Below are positions 34,737 through 44,781 of a DNA stretch of 64,000 nt, piece by piece (the stretch's first letter is position 1; every line of letters starts with the position of its first letter). The stretch spans positions 1 to 64,000 of the IMG/VR virus record IMGVR_UViG_3300050821_003608; one strand, written 5' to 3'. The notes below the pieces were generated by a model. The model was not told the origin of the DNA and did not search any database. It was given only the letters and a program-made list of their open reading frames with translations. Position numbers and translations under genes: made by a program. Source of the stretch: a virus.

Positions 34737-34913
34737 ATGAAAAAGCGCAAATGCGCCGAATGCAAACGTGTCTTCAAGCCGGTTCGCGAGTATCAACTGT
34801 ACTGCTCGCGGCGGTGCAAGAACCGCGCCGGATCACGTAGGCTGCGGGAACGGGCCAAGAATTACGTGGAGATGGTGGCGGAGCACGGAGGGGTGATGGG
34901 AGGGAATGACTGA
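34737..34913 (+). CDS. Cys4 zinc-finger protein, 58 aa
   Basis: Product starts MKKRKCAECKRVFKPVREYQ, continues LYCSRRCKNRAGSRRLRERA, giving C-x2-C and C-x3-C pairs of a compact treble-clef or ribbon followed by a basic helix. Such small proteins bind DNA or RNA in many phages. The stop shares a base with the next ATG. First gene behind its own promoter, suggesting a regulatory role. Confidence 0.7.
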   Translation: MKKRKCAECKRVFKPVREYQLYCSRRCKNRAGSRRLRERAKNYVEMVAEHGGVMGGND

Positions 34914-35956
34914 TGGCACGCTCAGGCTGTATCTACTGTCCAACTGGAGCACGCAAGACCTCGCAGGTGAAGGATTTCGCGCACTACATTGCGAGGAAGA
35001 CCGGGAAGGCCACGCTCCTGTTATCGACCGACGGCGGGGGATGGGATCCCTGCACTCCCGAGGTCAACGCGGGGATGATAAAGCCGTATCGCTGCGAAGT
35101 GGCCAATATGCCGCTCGTGCTCTTACGAAAAATCAGCCAAGGGTATTGGCCGGTCAATCCCTTGGAAACCAATCCCGAGCGCATCGACCTCGAACCTATG
35201 AACTACGACGAGATTGGAGGCATCGCCGTCGAGGGCTGGTCGTCCATCTCGCAGGTGGTGATGCGCTACCTGCCCGACCAAGGGATTAGCGTCGGCGGCG
35301 AAGACCGCAAGAAGGCCAACTCGAACATGTCCTTCGTCCAGTCCGTGCAGGTGATGGGCCAGTGGCGGCCCGAGAGCTTCGGGAGCAACACCCGCGGGGA
35401 CTATGGCTTCGTACAGAATTATCTCTACGGACTAGTGATGAACCTGAACTCACTGCCAGTCGAGTACGTTCTCTATACCGCGCTGGAGTCGAAGACCGAG
35501 GACGACGACCGCTCGACGACGTTCGGCCCGGCGATCGCGGGGAAGAAGGGAACGCGGGACTGTGGCGCGTGGGTCGGGGACCTCATTCACGGGCAGGATT
35601 ACCCTATCGCCAAGAAGATTCAGATGCCTGACCCGGCGGACGCGACCAAGACGATTGAGCTGGACCAGATCGACGTGACGGTGCGCTTCCACTTCAGGAA
35701 GCATCTCGACCCAGCGACGGGGATTCCATTCCCGGCCAAGCCCAGAGTGACGCCCGAGAAGACCGAGGCGCTGGAGAAGAGGTTCCCAGGGGGATACTTC
35801 GAGCCGTATGTGAAGGATGAGGTCGTGTACGAGGGGTTCGGCACGTACCTCGACGTGGTGGATTCGCTGGGAGCGATGCAAGCGGATACGCTCAAGGATT
35901 GGCGCACGAGGATGGACGCCAAGCTCGGGAGAGTTTCAGCAGGTCAGGGGAAGTAG
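34913..35956 (+). CDS. RecA/Sak4-like ATPase with degenerate P-loop, 347 aa
   Basis: The start GCIYCPTGARKTSQ occupies the place of a Walker A; the usual G-K-T is R-K-T and the first Gly is off register, so ATP use may be lost or altered. The phrase TGKATLLLSTDGGGWDP recalls the strand after the P-loop in RecA-like phage recombinases. A middle acidic YTALESKTEDDD could stand for Walker B. The end is helical (KTEALEKRFPGGYFEPYVKD). Placed just before an SSB-like gene. Recombinase-mediator role is inferred. Confidence 0.55.
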   Translation: MARSGCIYCPTGARKTSQVKDFAHYIARKTGKATLLLSTDGGGWDPCTPEVNAGMIKPYRCEVANMPLVLLRKISQGYWPVNPLETNPERIDLEPMNYDEIGGIAVEGWSSISQVVMRYLPDQGISVGGEDRKKANSNMSFVQSVQVMGQWRPESFGSNTRGDYGFVQNYLYGLVMNLNSLPVEYVLYTALESKTEDDDRSTTFGPAIAGKKGTRDCGAWVGDLIHGQDYPIAKKIQMPDPADATKTIELDQIDVTVRFHFRKHLDPATGIPFPAKPRVTPEKTEALEKRFPGGYFEPYVKDEVVYEGFGTYLDVVDSLGAMQADTLKDWRTRMDAKLGRVSAGQGK

Positions 35957-35987: not shown

Positions 35988-36818
35988 ATGGCAACACCAT
36001 CGAAACCATGGGAAGTCAGTCAGGGCAGTCAGGGCGGTGCTCCGTCGCAGCCAGGACAGCCAGGGGAGGCTCCGGTCAACGGCGCCGCACCAGTCTCGTC
36101 CGACGTACAGGATGTCATCGACCCGAACGACCCTCGCCTGGTATCAGAAGCCGTGGACGTGAACGTCGAAGGCGACGCTTACGCGCAGCCCAGTCCGCCG
36201 CCGGACGGGAAGTACCGTATCAAACTGAAGCTGGAGGGGATCGAGAAGGCCGACAAGTCGCATCTCGACTATGAACACACCGCGACGAAGAAGGCGCCCG
36301 TGATGCCGTACTTTCACACGCGCATCTCGGCCACCATCATCGACCCGACTGGAAAGTACGACGGCATCAAGGTCTACCCGGAGTTCGGCGGCTACGTCGG
36401 CACGCTCCAGAACAAGGACCGCTCGACCAAGGTCGCGACGATCCTCGCGCGGCTGAAGCGGCCGGACGGCCAGCCATGGGTCAACTCGACGATGAAGATG
36501 GACCAGAAGGGCTGGATGGACCTCTTCGTGAAAGCTCTGGCGGGCGAGCCGGAAATCGGCGGCGAGCTGCAATGGCAAGCGAGCTGCGAACAGTGCGGCA
36601 AGGAAGCCAAGGCCGCCAGGGAGCAGGGAAAGGACGCTGCGTACCCCGCGAACGTGAATGGGATGCATCGGTTCCCGCAGGAGCAGTCGGCAGACAAGCG
36701 GAAGTCGGCCGGCCACGGATACTCGTCCGAGGTGAAGTGTCAGAAGGACGCCTCACACGGGTACTCCAGAGCGCAGGCCCGCATCGTGCGGTTCCTGCAC
36801 ACGCATGAGTTGAAGTAA
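35988..36818 (+). CDS. SSB-like or zinc-containing DNA-binding protein, 276 aa
   Basis: ATG with AGAGGAAACGAA. After a Ser/Pro/Gln-rich leader (about 60 residues) comes a beta-rich domain (PPPDGKYRIKLKLEGIEKAD, HTRISATIIDPTGKYDGIKV) of OB-like type. A zinc element follows: QASCEQCGKEAKAAREQ with KCQKDASHGYSRAQ 50 residues on. The end FLHTHELK is short, without the acidic tip of cellular SSB. Location after the ATPase fits a single-strand-binding protein. Not proven. Confidence 0.5.
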   Translation: MATPSKPWEVSQGSQGGAPSQPGQPGEAPVNGAAPVSSDVQDVIDPNDPRLVSEAVDVNVEGDAYAQPSPPPDGKYRIKLKLEGIEKADKSHLDYEHTATKKAPVMPYFHTRISATIIDPTGKYDGIKVYPEFGGYVGTLQNKDRSTKVATILARLKRPDGQPWVNSTMKMDQKGWMDLFVKALAGEPEIGGELQWQASCEQCGKEAKAAREQGKDAAYPANVNGMHRFPQEQSADKRKSAGHGYSSEVKCQKDASHGYSRAQARIVRFLHTHELK

Positions 36819-37034: not shown

Positions 37035-37307
37035 ATGGCAGCACGAGGTTCGGCATTGCAACGCGCGCTCACGTATTTTCGTGAGGCGCAGATCGACGAA
37101 GCAAGGGTCGCGTACCAGCTGGCCGAGGAGATTATGACCAAGCGGCTGGATGATGCGGAGAAGGACTTCGCTCCATTCAAAGCGAAGGCATCGACACCGA
37201 GAAAGCAGCGGAAGACACGGACGCCCAAGACAGGCGCAACCACCGACCACCAGGACGTTCAGGCTCCTCCAGCACAGGAGCACCGGGAGTCCCTGGCCGA
37301 CGCATGA
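37035..37307 (+). CDS. Unknown helical protein, 90 aa
   Basis: ATG with AAAGGAGAACGAT. Helical N-terminal half (ALQRALTYFREAQIDEARVA) and a basic disordered tail (KAKASTPRKQRKTRTPKTGA). The stop overlaps the Pif1-like helicase ATG as ATGA. Possibly its loader or an interaction partner. Not recognised. Confidence 0.6.
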   Translation: MAARGSALQRALTYFREAQIDEARVAYQLAEEIMTKRLDDAEKDFAPFKAKASTPRKQRKTRTPKTGATTDHQDVQAPPAQEHRESLADA

Positions 37308-38644
37308 ACGAAGAGGTCCAACTCGGCCAAGTCGACTCCGAGATCCAGCTCGTCGGGGAGGAACTCCCAGTTCCATGTGAGTTCCTCACCGGCAAAGCTG
37401 GGAGCGGCAAGACGTATGAGGTGCTCCGCCGCGTGGGGGCGGACCCATCCTACGGGCTGGTCTGCGCGACCACGGGCATCGCGGCCGTGAACCTAGGCGC
37501 CGTGACCATCAACTCGGTGCTCAAGTATTTCGACACTGCGTCGATGCGAGACTCCTACCTCGCCGGCCACCTCACCCGCGTCCTGCACAAGATCGCCAAG
37601 GAGAAGCGTCGCATCATCATCGACGAGGGGTCCATGCTTGAAGCGGAACAGCTTGGCTACCTCTATCGTGCGACACAGGAGGCCAATCGCTTCGCCGACG
37701 TGAAAGTGCCCCTCGGTATCGTAGTGGTCGGGGACTTCGCCCAGCTCCCTCCGGTGAAGGGCGCCTGGGCGTTCACCTCCCCGTACTGGGCGGAGTTCGC
37801 ATCGAACACCACGAGACTCGACAAGGTATGGCGGCAGGGAGAGGGACAGTTCCTCGACGCACTGAACTTCGCTCGTGTCGGGGACGGACTGTCCTGCGCC
37901 AAGACATTATCTGAGGCCGGGGCGGGATGGAACTCCTCTCGCGACATGGACTTTGAAGGCACGACCATCTTGTGCAAGAACGACATGGTGTCGCGGCACA
38001 ACGACGTGGTGCTCGACCGCGTTCCTGGACCACGCTTCAAAGTAACCTCCGAGCGATGGGGCAAGCAACGCTCGGAGTGGGGCGAGAATAAACGTACCCA
38101 CGAGTGGGGCATCCCTCCGTCGTCGGAGTTCAAGCTGGGCGCGTATGTGATGGTGCTGTCCAACACGCGCGACTTCAGCATGGTCAACGGGGATTGCGGC
38201 TGGGTCCGATCCTACGATCCCGACCTGGAAGTGTTCACGGTCGAACTCATCCGCACCAAGAAGGAAGTCGTGGTTGGTAGGATCGTGCGTGAGGTCGCCG
38301 CGACGGACGAGCCCGAGGGATGGGTGGGAGACGAGTTGGACCGCGACGACGAGGCTGGGTGGCTGCCACGGCAGCACTATAGACCAAAGGACAAGAAGTA
38401 CGTGCTGGGGCAGATTCGATATTTCCCGCTGAGGCTGGCCTACGCGTCGACGGTGCACAAGTCGCAAGGACTCACGCTCGACCGCGTGCAGGTGGACTAC
38501 CGCGACCGATTCTTCGAGAGTGCGGCCATGGTATACGTCGCGCTCTCGCGGTGCCGGACACTCGAAGGGTTGCGACTGGTCGGTGGGCCGGACGTGCTGG
38601 CGCAAAAGTGTAGGGCGGATGTGAGGGTGATGGCATGGCTCTAG
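37304..38644 (+). CDS. Pif1/RecD-like SF1B helicase, 446 aa
   Basis: Walker A LTGKAGSGKTYEV (Lys36), Walker B RRIIIDEGSML, motif III VVVGDFAQLPPVKG, motif V YASTVHKSQGLTLD, motif VI VYVALSRCRTLEGL. Motif order and lengths match Pif1 and T4 Dda-type 5'-3' helicases. Catalytic residues look intact. A charged insert lies before motif V (DELDRDDEAGWLPRQHYRPK). Probably assists replication fork progression near the polymerase encoded downstream. Confidence 0.88.
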   Translation: MNEEVQLGQVDSEIQLVGEELPVPCEFLTGKAGSGKTYEVLRRVGADPSYGLVCATTGIAAVNLGAVTINSVLKYFDTASMRDSYLAGHLTRVLHKIAKEKRRIIIDEGSMLEAEQLGYLYRATQEANRFADVKVPLGIVVVGDFAQLPPVKGAWAFTSPYWAEFASNTTRLDKVWRQGEGQFLDALNFARVGDGLSCAKTLSEAGAGWNSSRDMDFEGTTILCKNDMVSRHNDVVLDRVPGPRFKVTSERWGKQRSEWGENKRTHEWGIPPSSEFKLGAYVMVLSNTRDFSMVNGDCGWVRSYDPDLEVFTVELIRTKKEVVVGRIVREVAATDEPEGWVGDELDRDDEAGWLPRQHYRPKDKKYVLGQIRYFPLRLAYASTVHKSQGLTLDRVQVDYRDRFFESAAMVYVALSRCRTLEGLRLVGGPDVLAQKCRADVRVMAWL

Positions 38645-39333: not shown

Positions 39334-39372
39334 CTCCGAGGTGCAAACCGAATAGTTGTGTTGGAGCCTTTC

Positions 39373-39777
39373 ATGCCTAGAAAGGGAACGAATCCGTATC
39401 GTTCCTCGACTTTTAGACGAAGCTGTCACAGAAAGTCTAGAAGGTTGTATGAGAGAACGTACAATATAAAACTCCCTTACTGGGTTGATGTTCATCATAA
39501 GAACGGCGACTACGCTGACATCAGAATAGAAAACCTCGTTGCTCTGGATGAGGCTACTCACAACCGAGTTCACTTCACCAAGCACTCCGAGCCTATACGA
39601 TGGAAGCGCCCTGAGCACAAGAAGTATCAAAGAGAATATAAAAAGAGGATTCGGGTTGTGAGGATTTGCGCTAGGTGTGGTGCGTCTTTTACGTGCGACA
39701 AGTATCACAAGGGTCTATGTTGCTCAGTTGGATGCTATCTGAGAGGAATGTCTCGTGGCAGCTCGTTCAAAGCCTAA
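39373..39777 (+). CDS. HNH homing endonuclease-like protein, 134 aa
   Basis: ATG with GGAG six bases upstream; a TTG five codons earlier is an alternative. HNH core: WVDVHHKNGDYADIRIENLV, then ALDEATHNRVHF, with His-Asn-His spacing as in freestanding phage homing endonucleases. The C-terminal end carries ICARCGASFTCDKYHKGLCC, a second zinc element that may recognise DNA. Base composition is markedly AT-richer than flanking genes, indicating acquisition. It overlaps the polymerase start by 23 bases and could have homed to this spot. Confidence 0.85.
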   Translation: MPRKGTNPYRSSTFRRSCHRKSRRLYERTYNIKLPYWVDVHHKNGDYADIRIENLVALDEATHNRVHFTKHSEPIRWKRPEHKKYQREYKKRIRVVRICARCGASFTCDKYHKGLCCSVGCYLRGMSRGSSFKA

Positions 39778-42700
39778 CTCGTGTATTGGTTGTGTCTGTC
39801 ACGACATGGGAACGGACTTCTCTGCGATCGAGGGCACGGGCAGCTCGGGGATTATGTTGGTGGGGGAGGCGTCAGGTGAGCATGAACAACGCGATGGGCT
39901 ACCGTTTCGACCTCACGCCCCTGCTGGCGGAGTTCTGGAGCGCACTCTTCGGCGCATGGGCCTTGATCGTCAGCAATTCTCCATTACTAACGTTGTGCGC
40001 TGTCGTCCTCGCAAAAATTGGCTGGAAGGCTCTCCGTGGGAATTTTCGGCTATCAATCATTGTCGTCCCAACTTGGACGCCGCCATTGCCGAGCGCCGTC
40101 CGCGTGTCATCGTCGCGCTCGGAGGGACCGCGCTCAGGGAATTGACGGGAATGGCCGGGGAGGCGCAGGGGATTTCTCACTTGGCTGGCTATGTGTTGCC
40201 CCTCGCGATTCCTACGATGATTCCCTGTTCGGAGCCAGCAGAGTTGGATGGGAAGCACCATCCTAATTGTTTCATCTGTGGGGGGTCGGGATTCATCGGA
40301 GGGCGTGGAGCTGGGACCATCCCAGTGATTGGAGACTTCCACCCCTCCTTCCTGCGCCACGGGAAGATGGCCCTCGGCGGGGTGTTCGCCCGCATCCTCC
40401 AGCGCGCCACCAATATCGCGAAGGGATTGGATAGGGAGTGGCTGTGGGGAGTGGACCCACGAGACCATTCCACTTGGGGGAAAAAGCAGTACGTAATTCA
40501 TCCGTCCGTGGATGACGCACGAGCCCTACGGAACCGCGTCTACGACAATCAGAATATTCCCGTGGCAGAGGACATCGAGACTCCCGAGTCTGCCTCTATG
40601 GACGAAGACGCCCGAGACGGATACAAAGACACGGAGATCCGCCAGATTCAATTCAGCATGGGCAAGGGCGAGGGGATGGCCTTTCCGTGGGAGGAGCCGT
40701 TCCGGTCCATCGCTTCGGAGATTATGCACTCTCCTAACCCGAAGTATGGGCACAACTGGGACAACTACGACCACAAAGTTCTGCGAGCGGCGGCAGCCCG
40801 TGAGGGGTGGAGTTATGCCCCCACAGTTCGGGTTCTGGACACTCTGGACTTATTCCATCATTGGCAGCCCGACCTTCCGGCGCATCTCCAGTTTGCCTGT
40901 AACTTTATCTCGTTCCCCTTTCCTTGGAAGCACCTGCATACGCTAGAGAACGAGCCTTTCTATGGCTGTGTGGACGTAGACTCGGACTGGCAGCTCGGGG
41001 AGATGCTCATTAGGACGTTGAAGCGCGACGACATGTACGGGTTCGCTCAGTCGTCGATTGGGTACATAGGGCAGGTCTATGAGGTCCGCCCGGTCCTCGC
41101 CGCGATGGAGGACCGCGGGATGCCCATCGACGACGCTGCGAGGCTGGCGCTCGACGTGGAGTTTGAGATTGCCCAGCGCGAGTTGGGCACAGAGCTGGCG
41201 AAGCTGGCGCCCAGACAGTGCGGAAGACTCCAGCCCAAGGAGGGATACAAAGGGGTTCCTCCAGAGATGAAGCCGTGGATTAACACTCCACAGTTACAGG
41301 AGGAGATGGACCGCCCGAGGCTTGACGACAGGGAATACTACCACTACGCGATTTACGACTTCCCCGTGGCAATCAGAGGAGCCAACGATGAGCTAGCTAT
41401 CGAGAAGGTGGACCGCTGGGTCCGCGTCTACGACTTCAACCCGAACTCTCGGCCGCAAATCATCAACTACATGAAGGCCAAGGGCCACCCGGTCCCCAAG
41501 TCGAAGGAAGAAGACTCCGAGGGCAATGCGAAGGAGACCACTGCGGCGAAGGAGCTGATGCGCCTCGCCGCGAAGACGGGGGACGACTTCTATCTCAAGT
41601 GCAATCAGTACAAGGGATATACGAAGATGCGCGGCACCTACGTCGCGGGATTCATCCCCGGCGAGGACGGCTGCGTACACACGACCTTCACCTTCGACAC
41701 CGGAATTGGGCAGCTATCTTCCAGAAATCCTAATATCCAGAACTTCCCCAAGCTGAAGCCTACCCCCGCGATCGCCAAGTCCATGCGCAAGATGGTCGCG
41801 GCCAAGCCGGGGCACGTACTGACGGAGTGGGACTTCAAATCCTGCCACGTCATCACGCTCGGCTTCCTGGCCGAAGACCTGAACTACATGAGACTGGGGA
41901 GATTGGACATCCACTCGTTCGTCGCCGGCCACTTTCTCGGCCACTGGGATGGACTGAAGATATTCGGCGAGACCGACGAGGAGTTGCTGGCCCGATTCAA
42001 ATGGCTGAAATCGGACGAAGTAAGAAGGACGGTGCGCGATGACCAAGCCAAGCATGGGATACTTGGTATTGGTAACGGGCTCAAAGCGAAGGGTCTTTAC
42101 GAACGCTACATGGAATCGTTTCCTCCAACGCCATGCCAGGTCTGCGCTGGAACGGGCAAGGTTGCAGGCGTCCGTGGGCCTAAGAAGTGCGCGTCGTGTC
42201 AAGGAATAGGGAAGGTCCCCGGCCAGCGAGTCGCCGAGCGCGTCCTCGAAGTGTGCGAATCCCTCTTCCCGAACGTCTTCGCCTACCAGAAGCGGGAAGT
42301 GAAACAAGCACACGAGCAGCAATTCCTCAAGACCGACTTCGGGCATATTCGCCGCTTCTACGAGGTGTTCCGCTGGGACCATCGCCGTGGCGACTGGGGG
42401 CCGGGTGACCAGCATGAGGAGGCAGTGGCGTTCCGCCTTGCGAACATCGCGTTCGGGCATATACGGGAGAAGCTCAAACAGTTGCACTACTCGGGGCTGG
42501 CCGAGCGATGGGGACTTTTCAACAACGTACATGATAGCTTCCTCTTTAATTTCCCCGAGAGTCAGTTAGAGGAGCATGTCGCCGAGGTCTACCCTGTCCT
42601 CGTCGAACCATCGAAGGTGCTGCGTCATCCAACGATATGCCCTGACGGACTGGTGATCGGTGTCGAAGGCGCGTGGGGCAGGACGTGGGCCGACATGCAG

Positions 42701-42826
42701 GAGATCAAGGTCGGGGTCAGTGCGGCATCCTCCAGCCATGAGCCGGAGGTATCTCGTGACGCGCACACGTCTCAAAGCGCGGATCTGGCAACTGCGCGAA
42801 TGGGAACCGATAGGGGAACGCTGTGA
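39755..42826 (+). CDS. Uracil-DNA glycosylase/DNA polymerase A fusion, 1023 aa
   Basis: Residues 1-215 form a family-4-type uracil-DNA glycosylase: Cys10, Cys13, Cys83 and Cys103 as iron-sulfur ligands, motif GEASGEHE, GLPF and the late HPS motif at His196. A CxxCxGxG pair (Cys172, Cys175) lies within. Residues about 270-450 form a 3'-5' exonuclease with DIE at Asp273/Glu275 and HNWDNYDHKV. Residues about 460-980 form a family A polymerase with motif A at Asp693 (WDFKSCHV), motif B at Lys766 (KHGILGIGNG) and motif C HDS at Asp927. Cys794/797/812/815 form two CxxCxGxG motifs between B and C. Fusion of these activities in one chain is unusual. Catalytic Asp residues remain. Confidence 0.88.
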   Translation: MAARSKPNSCIGCVCHDMGTDFSAIEGTGSSGIMLVGEASGEHEQRDGLPFRPHAPAGGVLERTLRRMGLDRQQFSITNVVRCRPRKNWLEGSPWEFSAINHCRPNLDAAIAERRPRVIVALGGTALRELTGMAGEAQGISHLAGYVLPLAIPTMIPCSEPAELDGKHHPNCFICGGSGFIGGRGAGTIPVIGDFHPSFLRHGKMALGGVFARILQRATNIAKGLDREWLWGVDPRDHSTWGKKQYVIHPSVDDARALRNRVYDNQNIPVAEDIETPESASMDEDARDGYKDTEIRQIQFSMGKGEGMAFPWEEPFRSIASEIMHSPNPKYGHNWDNYDHKVLRAAAAREGWSYAPTVRVLDTLDLFHHWQPDLPAHLQFACNFISFPFPWKHLHTLENEPFYGCVDVDSDWQLGEMLIRTLKRDDMYGFAQSSIGYIGQVYEVRPVLAAMEDRGMPIDDAARLALDVEFEIAQRELGTELAKLAPRQCGRLQPKEGYKGVPPEMKPWINTPQLQEEMDRPRLDDREYYHYAIYDFPVAIRGANDELAIEKVDRWVRVYDFNPNSRPQIINYMKAKGHPVPKSKEEDSEGNAKETTAAKELMRLAAKTGDDFYLKCNQYKGYTKMRGTYVAGFIPGEDGCVHTTFTFDTGIGQLSSRNPNIQNFPKLKPTPAIAKSMRKMVAAKPGHVLTEWDFKSCHVITLGFLAEDLNYMRLGRLDIHSFVAGHFLGHWDGLKIFGETDEELLARFKWLKSDEVRRTVRDDQAKHGILGIGNGLKAKGLYERYMESFPPTPCQVCAGTGKVAGVRGPKKCASCQGIGKVPGQRVAERVLEVCESLFPNVFAYQKREVKQAHEQQFLKTDFGHIRRFYEVFRWDHRRGDWGPGDQHEEAVAFRLANIAFGHIREKLKQLHYSGLAERWGLFNNVHDSFLFNFPESQLEEHVAEVYPVLVEPSKVLRHPTICPDGLVIGVEGAWGRTWADMQEIKVGVSAASSSHEPEVSRDAHTSQSADLATARMGTDRGTL

Positions 42827-42930
42827 GGGCGAAGTCCGGTCGGTTCCTCGCTCTGGTGAGACTGAGTGAGAGCGCACCCCTGACCGGGCGCGGAGAGGAC
42901 AGGAGGAGGAGTGATGAACCTGAACACTAA
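42823..42930 (+). CDS. Doubtful small basic ORF, 35 aa
   Basis: GTGA overlap with the polymerase stop; product starts VRAKSGRFLALVRLSESAPL and ends in an Arg-rich tract. It overlaps the next gene by 17 bases. No ribosome site of its own. Listed for completeness because coupling by GTGA is common here. Confidence 0.25.
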   Translation: MRAKSGRFLALVRLSESAPLTGRGEDRRRSDEPEH

Positions 42931-43924: not shown

Positions 43925-44216
43925 ACGCATGACCCCCTCGAAACGGCAGCGGCGGAGCGGGGGCCAGGTGCAGCTAGTGGATACGTTGTACGGTTGCGTT
44001 TGCGGCCACTCTTGGTGGTCGATGCGTAATCCCCGGCGTTGCCCCAGGTGTAGGAGGATGCGCCAAACGAAGCTACAGAAGGCGGTCCTCCAAGCAGTGC
44101 AAGTCGAGAGCGATTGGTGGCACAAGGAATGGCACAACGCTACGGGAATTCCTTGCGATGGCGTTTCCGAGTACTGCCCGCTGGTGCGCCGCGAAAGGTC
44201 GGCCAAGCATGGGTGA
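43914..44216 (+). CDS. Zinc-ribbon protein, 100 aa
   Basis: The ATG at 43914 overlaps the previous gene by 11 bases; ATG at 43929 is an alternative with GGAG upstream. Cysteines in YGCVCGHSWWSMRNPRRCPR and CRRM form a zinc ribbon. A Trp-rich helix follows (ESDWWHKEWHNATGIPCDGV). Basic N-terminus (TPSKRQRRSGGQVQ). DNA-binding or adaptor role possible. Confidence 0.6.
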   Translation: MERKRMTPSKRQRRSGGQVQLVDTLYGCVCGHSWWSMRNPRRCPRCRRMRQTKLQKAVLQAVQVESDWWHKEWHNATGIPCDGVSEYCPLVRRERSAKHG

Positions 44217-44781
44217 GCGAGTGACGACGTTGAGCGATTGCCGAAAGTACCGCTACACGCTTTGGCGCGACTGGCCGATGTCAGATGGTGAGGAGCGTCA
44301 AGGGTTCGACCGCGAGCGCGCTTACGCGATGTTTATTGGCCTGAATCCGTCTACCGCCGACGAAGTGGAGGACGACCCAACGATACGTCGCTGCATAGGT
44401 TTCGCAAAGTCTTGGGGCTACGGAGCGTTGTGCATGACGAATCTGTTTGCTTTCCGTGCGACGAATCCCAAGGAACTGTACCGCAACAGCAACGTTGTGG
44501 GCGCAGAAAACGATGAGTGGATTAAGCGATGCGCCAAAGGCGCGTGCGTTGTCGTGGCCGCATGGGGTAAGGATGGAGACCACCTATACCGAGACCAAGA
44601 CGTGCCTTACATGCTGGCGCAGTTAGAAGGATTTCCGAGCGAGCGGTTCAAATGTTTCGGACGTAACAAGGATGGGTCACCGAAGCATCCGCTTTACTTG
44701 GCGAAGACCACGCCACTGATTCCATTTTGGCAGATGTGCGGCCCGCGCCGCAGGCGGAGAAGGGAACGAAATGAGGACTAA
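44209..44781 (+). CDS. DUF1643 family protein, 190 aa
   Basis: ATG within the previous stop region. Matches DUF1643 phrases: YRYTLWRDWP, MFIGLNPSTADEVEDDPTIR, GYGALCMTNLFAFRATNPKE, VVVAAWGKDGDH and GSPKHPLYLAKTTPLIPF. Family function is not established; members occur in phages and mobile elements. The Asp/Arg-rich conserved block suggests nucleotide or nucleic acid chemistry. Confidence 0.8.
   Translation: MGERVTTLSDCRKYRYTLWRDWPMSDGEERQGFDRERAYAMFIGLNPSTADEVEDDPTIRRCIGFAKSWGYGALCMTNLFAFRATNPKELYRNSNVVGAENDEWIKRCAKGACVVVAAWGKDGDHLYRDQDVPYMLAQLEGFPSERFKCFGRNKDGSPKHPLYLAKTTPLIPFWQMCGPRRRRRRERNED

Follow-up and report, generated by a model that had tools for sequence, protein, structure and literature searches.

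A predicted iron–sulfur uracil-DNA glycosylase fused to the proofreading family A DNA polymerase of a tailed phage

The stretch of DNA analyzed here (the window) represents bases 1–64,000 of a 64,465-base source record, which is that of a tailed phage (64.5 kb), and holds on its plus strand, at 39,755..42,826 including the stop codon, the gene of the replicative DNA polymerase, whose 1023 aa product unites a uracil-DNA glycosylase (UDG), a 3′-5′ exonuclease and a family A DNA polymerase. The gene starts with a GTG codon and its frame is uninterrupted over 39,755–42,823, with the stop codon extending to 42,826; when the window was shuffled 100 times, no stretch free of stops exceeded 351 codons, which excludes a chance origin of the 1023 aa frame. 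The three domains had been read out of this single frame in the initial annotation, and Pfam, PHROG 403 and the conserved motifs all agree with that reading, just as the domain limits proposed there (UDG at residues 1–215, exonuclease and polymerase at 270–980) agree with the AlphaFold model of the full fusion protein. The latter, computed from 43 alignment rows (an earlier run with 7 sequences, at a pLDDT of 41, was discarded), had a mean pLDDT of 87.1 and a pTM of 0.82, and its pLDDT fell below 50 only in the tail at residues 989–1023 and in a UDG loop at residues 183–186. The top Foldseek matches in the PDB were Klenow-type polymerases, aligned over about 790 columns, and the top viral matches, with 1030–1110 aligned columns, ran the length of the fusion.

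The UDG-superfamily domain (residues 1–222; 39,755..40,420, plus strand) is delineated by PF03167, TIGR00758 and PDB matches to family-4 UDGs. Its superfamily membership follows from the PF03167 match at residues 30–156 (E = 1.9e-20; 73.8 bits versus the Pfam cut-off of 24.3), as expected of a domain initially called a UDG, while the narrower label of a family-4-type enzyme holds only in part: the cysteines and the best relatives speak for it (the nearest solved UDGs by sequence, 4zbx, 1l9g and 1vk2, are all of the family-4 type), whereas the NCBIfam UDG_fam4 match (TIGR00758; E = 7.9e-23) stays at 81 bits, below the curated cut-off of 125.3, and motif 1 reads GEASG where family 4 reads GE(A/G)PG. 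The thermophile family-4 UDGs that are the best PDB sequence matches (4zbx, 1vk2 and 1ui0) furthermore differ in being stand-alone enzymes, with GEAPG or GEGPG in place of the GEASG of the window. The four cluster cysteines of a family-4 UDG are all present at the positions initially pointed out and correspond to those of 4zbx in the alignment: C10 and C13, the first two predicted 4Fe-4S ligands (39,782..39,793), in 35/35 rows; C83, the third, in 37/37, sharing the motif NVVRC (39,989..40,003) with N79 (36/36); and C103, the predicted fourth (40,061..40,063), in 36/36, where the counts, here and for the other UDG motifs, are those rows of the family alignment (37 relatives) that cover the residue in question. 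Equally invariant are E38 (35/35) of motif 1 (GEASGEHE, residues 37–44; 39,863..39,886) and H196 (36/36) of motif 2 (H196-P197; 40,340..40,345), in which HPS is retained; all of these motifs lie on the plus strand. A UdgX-type KRRIH loop with the covalent His is absent after N79/C83, the sequence there being CRPRKNWLEGSPWEF. The alignment also delimits an insert at residues 156–188 with Cys 158, 172 and 175 (40,220..40,318, plus strand; pLDDT of about 60), which has a similar counterpart in relative L002 and none in L003–L005.

The adjoining 3′-5′ exonuclease (residues about 245–424; 40,487..41,026, plus strand) received no Pfam call in the fusion protein at E ≤ 0.01, and is recognized from PHROG 403 (polymerase exonuclease subunit), which matches residues 332–397, from the alignment and from the model; the DxE, NxxxxD and YxxxD motifs of a proofreading DEDDy exonuclease are all there, with D273, E275, D339, Y403 and D407 invariant in the family alignment. 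For the family A polymerase (residues about 436–985; 41,060..42,709, plus strand), Pfam, the alignment, the predicted structure and Foldseek concur: PF00476 (DNA_pol_A) matches residues 559–727 (E = 1.2e-18) at 67.7 bits versus a cut-off of 34.3, upholding the initial assignment to PolA, and the family A catalytic residues D693, K766 and D927 are invariant in the family alignment. Two usual, albeit not strictly defining, family A features are lacking, namely the Glu steric gate of motif A, where H698 stands, and the Arg of the motif before A, replaced by Q653; His and Gln occupy these positions in 37/37 family rows, and motif A of the other fused polymerases and of phage P23-45 has Glu or Asp at the position of the His. 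A DnaJ-like double CxxCxGxG insert, seen in the alignment after motif B (residues 790–822; 42,122..42,220, plus strand), is found in the window plus a minority of the relatives, and the protein ends in a disordered tail (residues about 986–1023; 42,710..42,823, plus strand; pLDDT below 50).

Several plus-strand genes accompany the fusion gene among its relatives: a Dda-like helicase as the upstream neighbour (37,304..38,644; in 32/37), a Sak4-like protein (34,913..35,956; in 30/37) and a neighbour whose function is unassigned (35,988..36,818; in 29/37). A conserved block including a Sak4-like protein and a helicase fits the fusion protein serving as the main replication polymerase. The start of the fusion gene is overlapped by 23 bases by an HNH endonuclease gene (39,358–39,777), which, as it is matched in only 1/37 relatives, is probably a mobile insertion. 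On the other side, a protein encoded at 42,911–43,924 matches PHROG 6247 (DNA topoisomerase) without a Pfam match and has a nearby counterpart in only 1/37 relatives, and a DUF1643 protein near the fusion (44,158–44,781) bears a GLNPSTAD motif that is UDG-like by eye; a profile comparison for DUF1643 as a second UDG fold, built on only two sequences, gave nothing.

Scans of IMG/VR provided 37 distinct relatives, whose architecture classes were counted by hand, and a host search of bacterial genomes found no relative. UDG through polymerase lie in one frame in 28 of the 37, each on a distinct contig, while four are truncated at contig ends, one (L054) looks frameshifted, and four (L051, L056, L057 and L058) have a UDG-exonuclease gene separate from the polymerase gene. 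The split falls between exonuclease and polymerase, with the UDG staying joined to the exonuclease (as also in L012); by manual reading, in L058 a 17-base stretch is shared by the two open frames, and in L057 an HNH endonuclease-like reading frame parts the two genes, and in a tree of the polymerase part the split rows appear in at least two places, some of them on long branches. Although such separate genes and the appearance of L054 might suggest a frameshift or assembly error that fused two genes, as had been considered from the outset, the recurrence of the same continuous frame in 28 independent contigs means that the fusion is no frameshift artefact and, together with its occurrence in isolated phages, leaves this reading with practically no probability.

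The UDG is, moreover, interrupted in some lineages by inteins, called by manual reading (a Cys at the start, HN at the end and a Cys after the insert), which split it immediately before C83 or its equivalent in L031:8001-11783 and L139:1885-6099, at an identical insertion point even though the fusion lineage of L139 is unrelated to that of L031. Further intein-like inserts are found in exonuclease motif II (L050:7929-12173) and, within the polymerase, close to motif A and in the motif preceding it (L048:7950-11699 and L042:5698-8556). Inteins favour conserved active sites as insertion points, and their position at C83, together with the invariance of C10, C13, C83, C103, E38, N79 and H196, argues from sequence that the UDG is no relic and is under selection for function as a predicted iron–sulfur glycosylase.

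The UDG-exonuclease-PolA architecture is already known in many phages, and the window fusion, whose novelty the initial annotation implied, is not new in kind: SPO1, the PaBG group and other phages share it. A UDG-domain search matched 106 phage records, many of them annotated as DNA polymerase. The DNA polymerase I (gp205) of the Pseudomonas jumbo phage PaBG has UDG, 3′-5′ exonuclease and polymerase from the N- to the C-terminus, an order common to all 11 members of its “Lupandier” group, and its UDG has been modelled on the Thermus family-4 UDG 1ui0 (PMC7412058, 2020); the window protein, likened to gp205 by that published description, has the same three-domain order in one chain, although PaBG differs in being a jumbo phage. 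Bacillus phage SPO1 gp31 likewise follows the order of UDG (E = 3.2e-22), exonuclease and PolA (Pfam), but unlike the window fusion it has degenerate UDG cysteines and catalytic motifs, as well as a dUMP hydroxymethylase gene nearby. The polymerases of ctfzr933, StAshley, Mel-JY34, vir526 and ctMlz233 also combine UDG, exonuclease and PolA (Pfam), yet share about 22–23% overall identity with the window protein and lack both the motif A His and the DnaJ-like insert. Some bacterial C-family DnaE variants carry a fused UDG domain (PF03167) too, likewise on a replicative-type polymerase, albeit one of another family, whose C-terminal OB and CTD domains have given way to the UDG (PMC3919608). A degenerate UDG-like C-terminal region was also seen in the DNA polymerase III alpha of Rhizobium phage B1VFA (L067:2097-5465), with similar matches in further Rhizobium and Pseudomonas phages. 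New in detail are the exonuclease/polymerase gene splits of some relatives, the inteins placed in two unrelated lineages at a cluster cysteine of the UDG, and the His at the steric gate of the polymerase.

Elsewhere, the SPO1-like, PMBT14-like, Serbin-like and KimJongPhill-like fusions have kept the UDG domain and lost its catalytic motifs, which indicates that excision is not a requirement of every such fusion, and a structural role of the UDG is probable somewhere in the wider fusion group. In L059, L060, L061, L064, L069 and L008, the UDG-PolA genes lie within a cluster of thymidylate synthase, dCMP deaminase, and dUTPase or pyrophosphatase genes, with UDG motifs that are in many cases degenerate. 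A strict rule prompted by the named phages, whereby a thymidylate synthase/dCMP deaminase cassette would denote a dead fused UDG, was rejected, as E38 and N79 are both kept in 33 of the 80 cassette rows; among the 154 long UDG-bearing frames compared, all from outside the window's family, this stands against 54/74 rows without a cassette (Fisher p = 9e-5, the rows being related and not independent), so that cassette presence appears to go with UDG motif loss as a tendency only.

Given the observed fusion, the identities of its domains, the conservation of their catalytic and cluster residues and the conserved replication block, the best explanation, which we hold with somewhat better than even confidence, would be a replisome-tethered, predicted active Fe-S UDG that excises uracil, mounted on a proofreading family A replicative polymerase, and a coupling of uracil handling to synthesis is what we would most sensibly infer from the join. 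Uracil, stemming from cytosine deamination or dUTP incorporation, would be bound and excised by the UDG domain at or near the replication point, and the resulting AP site might be passed on to host base-excision repair or, if the uracil was located at or close to the 3′ terminus of the new strand, to the adjoining exonuclease. Excision of a template uracil ahead of the polymerase, on the other hand, would leave a blocking AP site, AP endonuclease 2 (the one AP endonuclease family searched for) was found in none of the family records and in 0/3 phage controls as well, and the family-4 Pro of motif 1 is replaced by Ser. The same three points would be accommodated by a domain that binds template uracil and stalls the polymerase, by analogy with archaeal family B polymerases, but binding alone would not obviously need the catalytic residues, whose full invariance makes such a uracil reader rather unlikely. 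Not quite as probable as the reader is that UDG and exonuclease form a natural unit, in which the glycosylase would mark new-strand dUMP and the exonuclease remove it, as a second proofreading for a polymerase with an altered gate; that the UDG has remained joined to the exonuclease where the gene is split may point to editing, and not polymerisation itself, as its partner activity, although the sample is thin (four related loci and L012).

Vaccinia D4, a UDG that is part of the viral processivity factor, provides a model in which the UDG fold would clamp DNA or contribute to processivity and excision would be secondary, an arrangement that would suit the fusions that keep the domain without its catalytic motifs; in the window's family, every row that covers a catalytic or cluster residue has kept it, and we consider such a role here doubtful, to the same degree as the editing unit. 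It is far less probable that the phage has modified or uracil-containing DNA in which the UDG excises or sorts unmodified uracil. SPO1, which is an hmU phage, has the fusion, and several other fusions adjoin a thymidylate synthase, dCMP deaminase, dUTPase or annotated pyrimidine hydroxymethylase, but in the window's family thymidylate synthase and dCMP deaminase were each found in 0/28 records (which may be incomplete) versus 3/3 phage controls, and dUTPase in 1/28 of these same possibly incomplete records; the window's Pfam matches include no DNA modification gene, and an active UDG would harm a U-DNA genome. The initially suggested dealing with a modified template is thus unsupported for this phage, and nothing was found in support of the accompanying idea of a guard against host deamination.

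No functional test of the UDG-exonuclease-PolA architecture was found in the literature reached. As all the checked catalytic residues of the UDG, exonuclease and polymerase are intact and there is no sign of modified DNA, the window's family represents a clean system for asking whether a tethered UDG excises uracil, senses it, or merely holds DNA, for which the natural exonuclease/polymerase splits are ready-made constructs.
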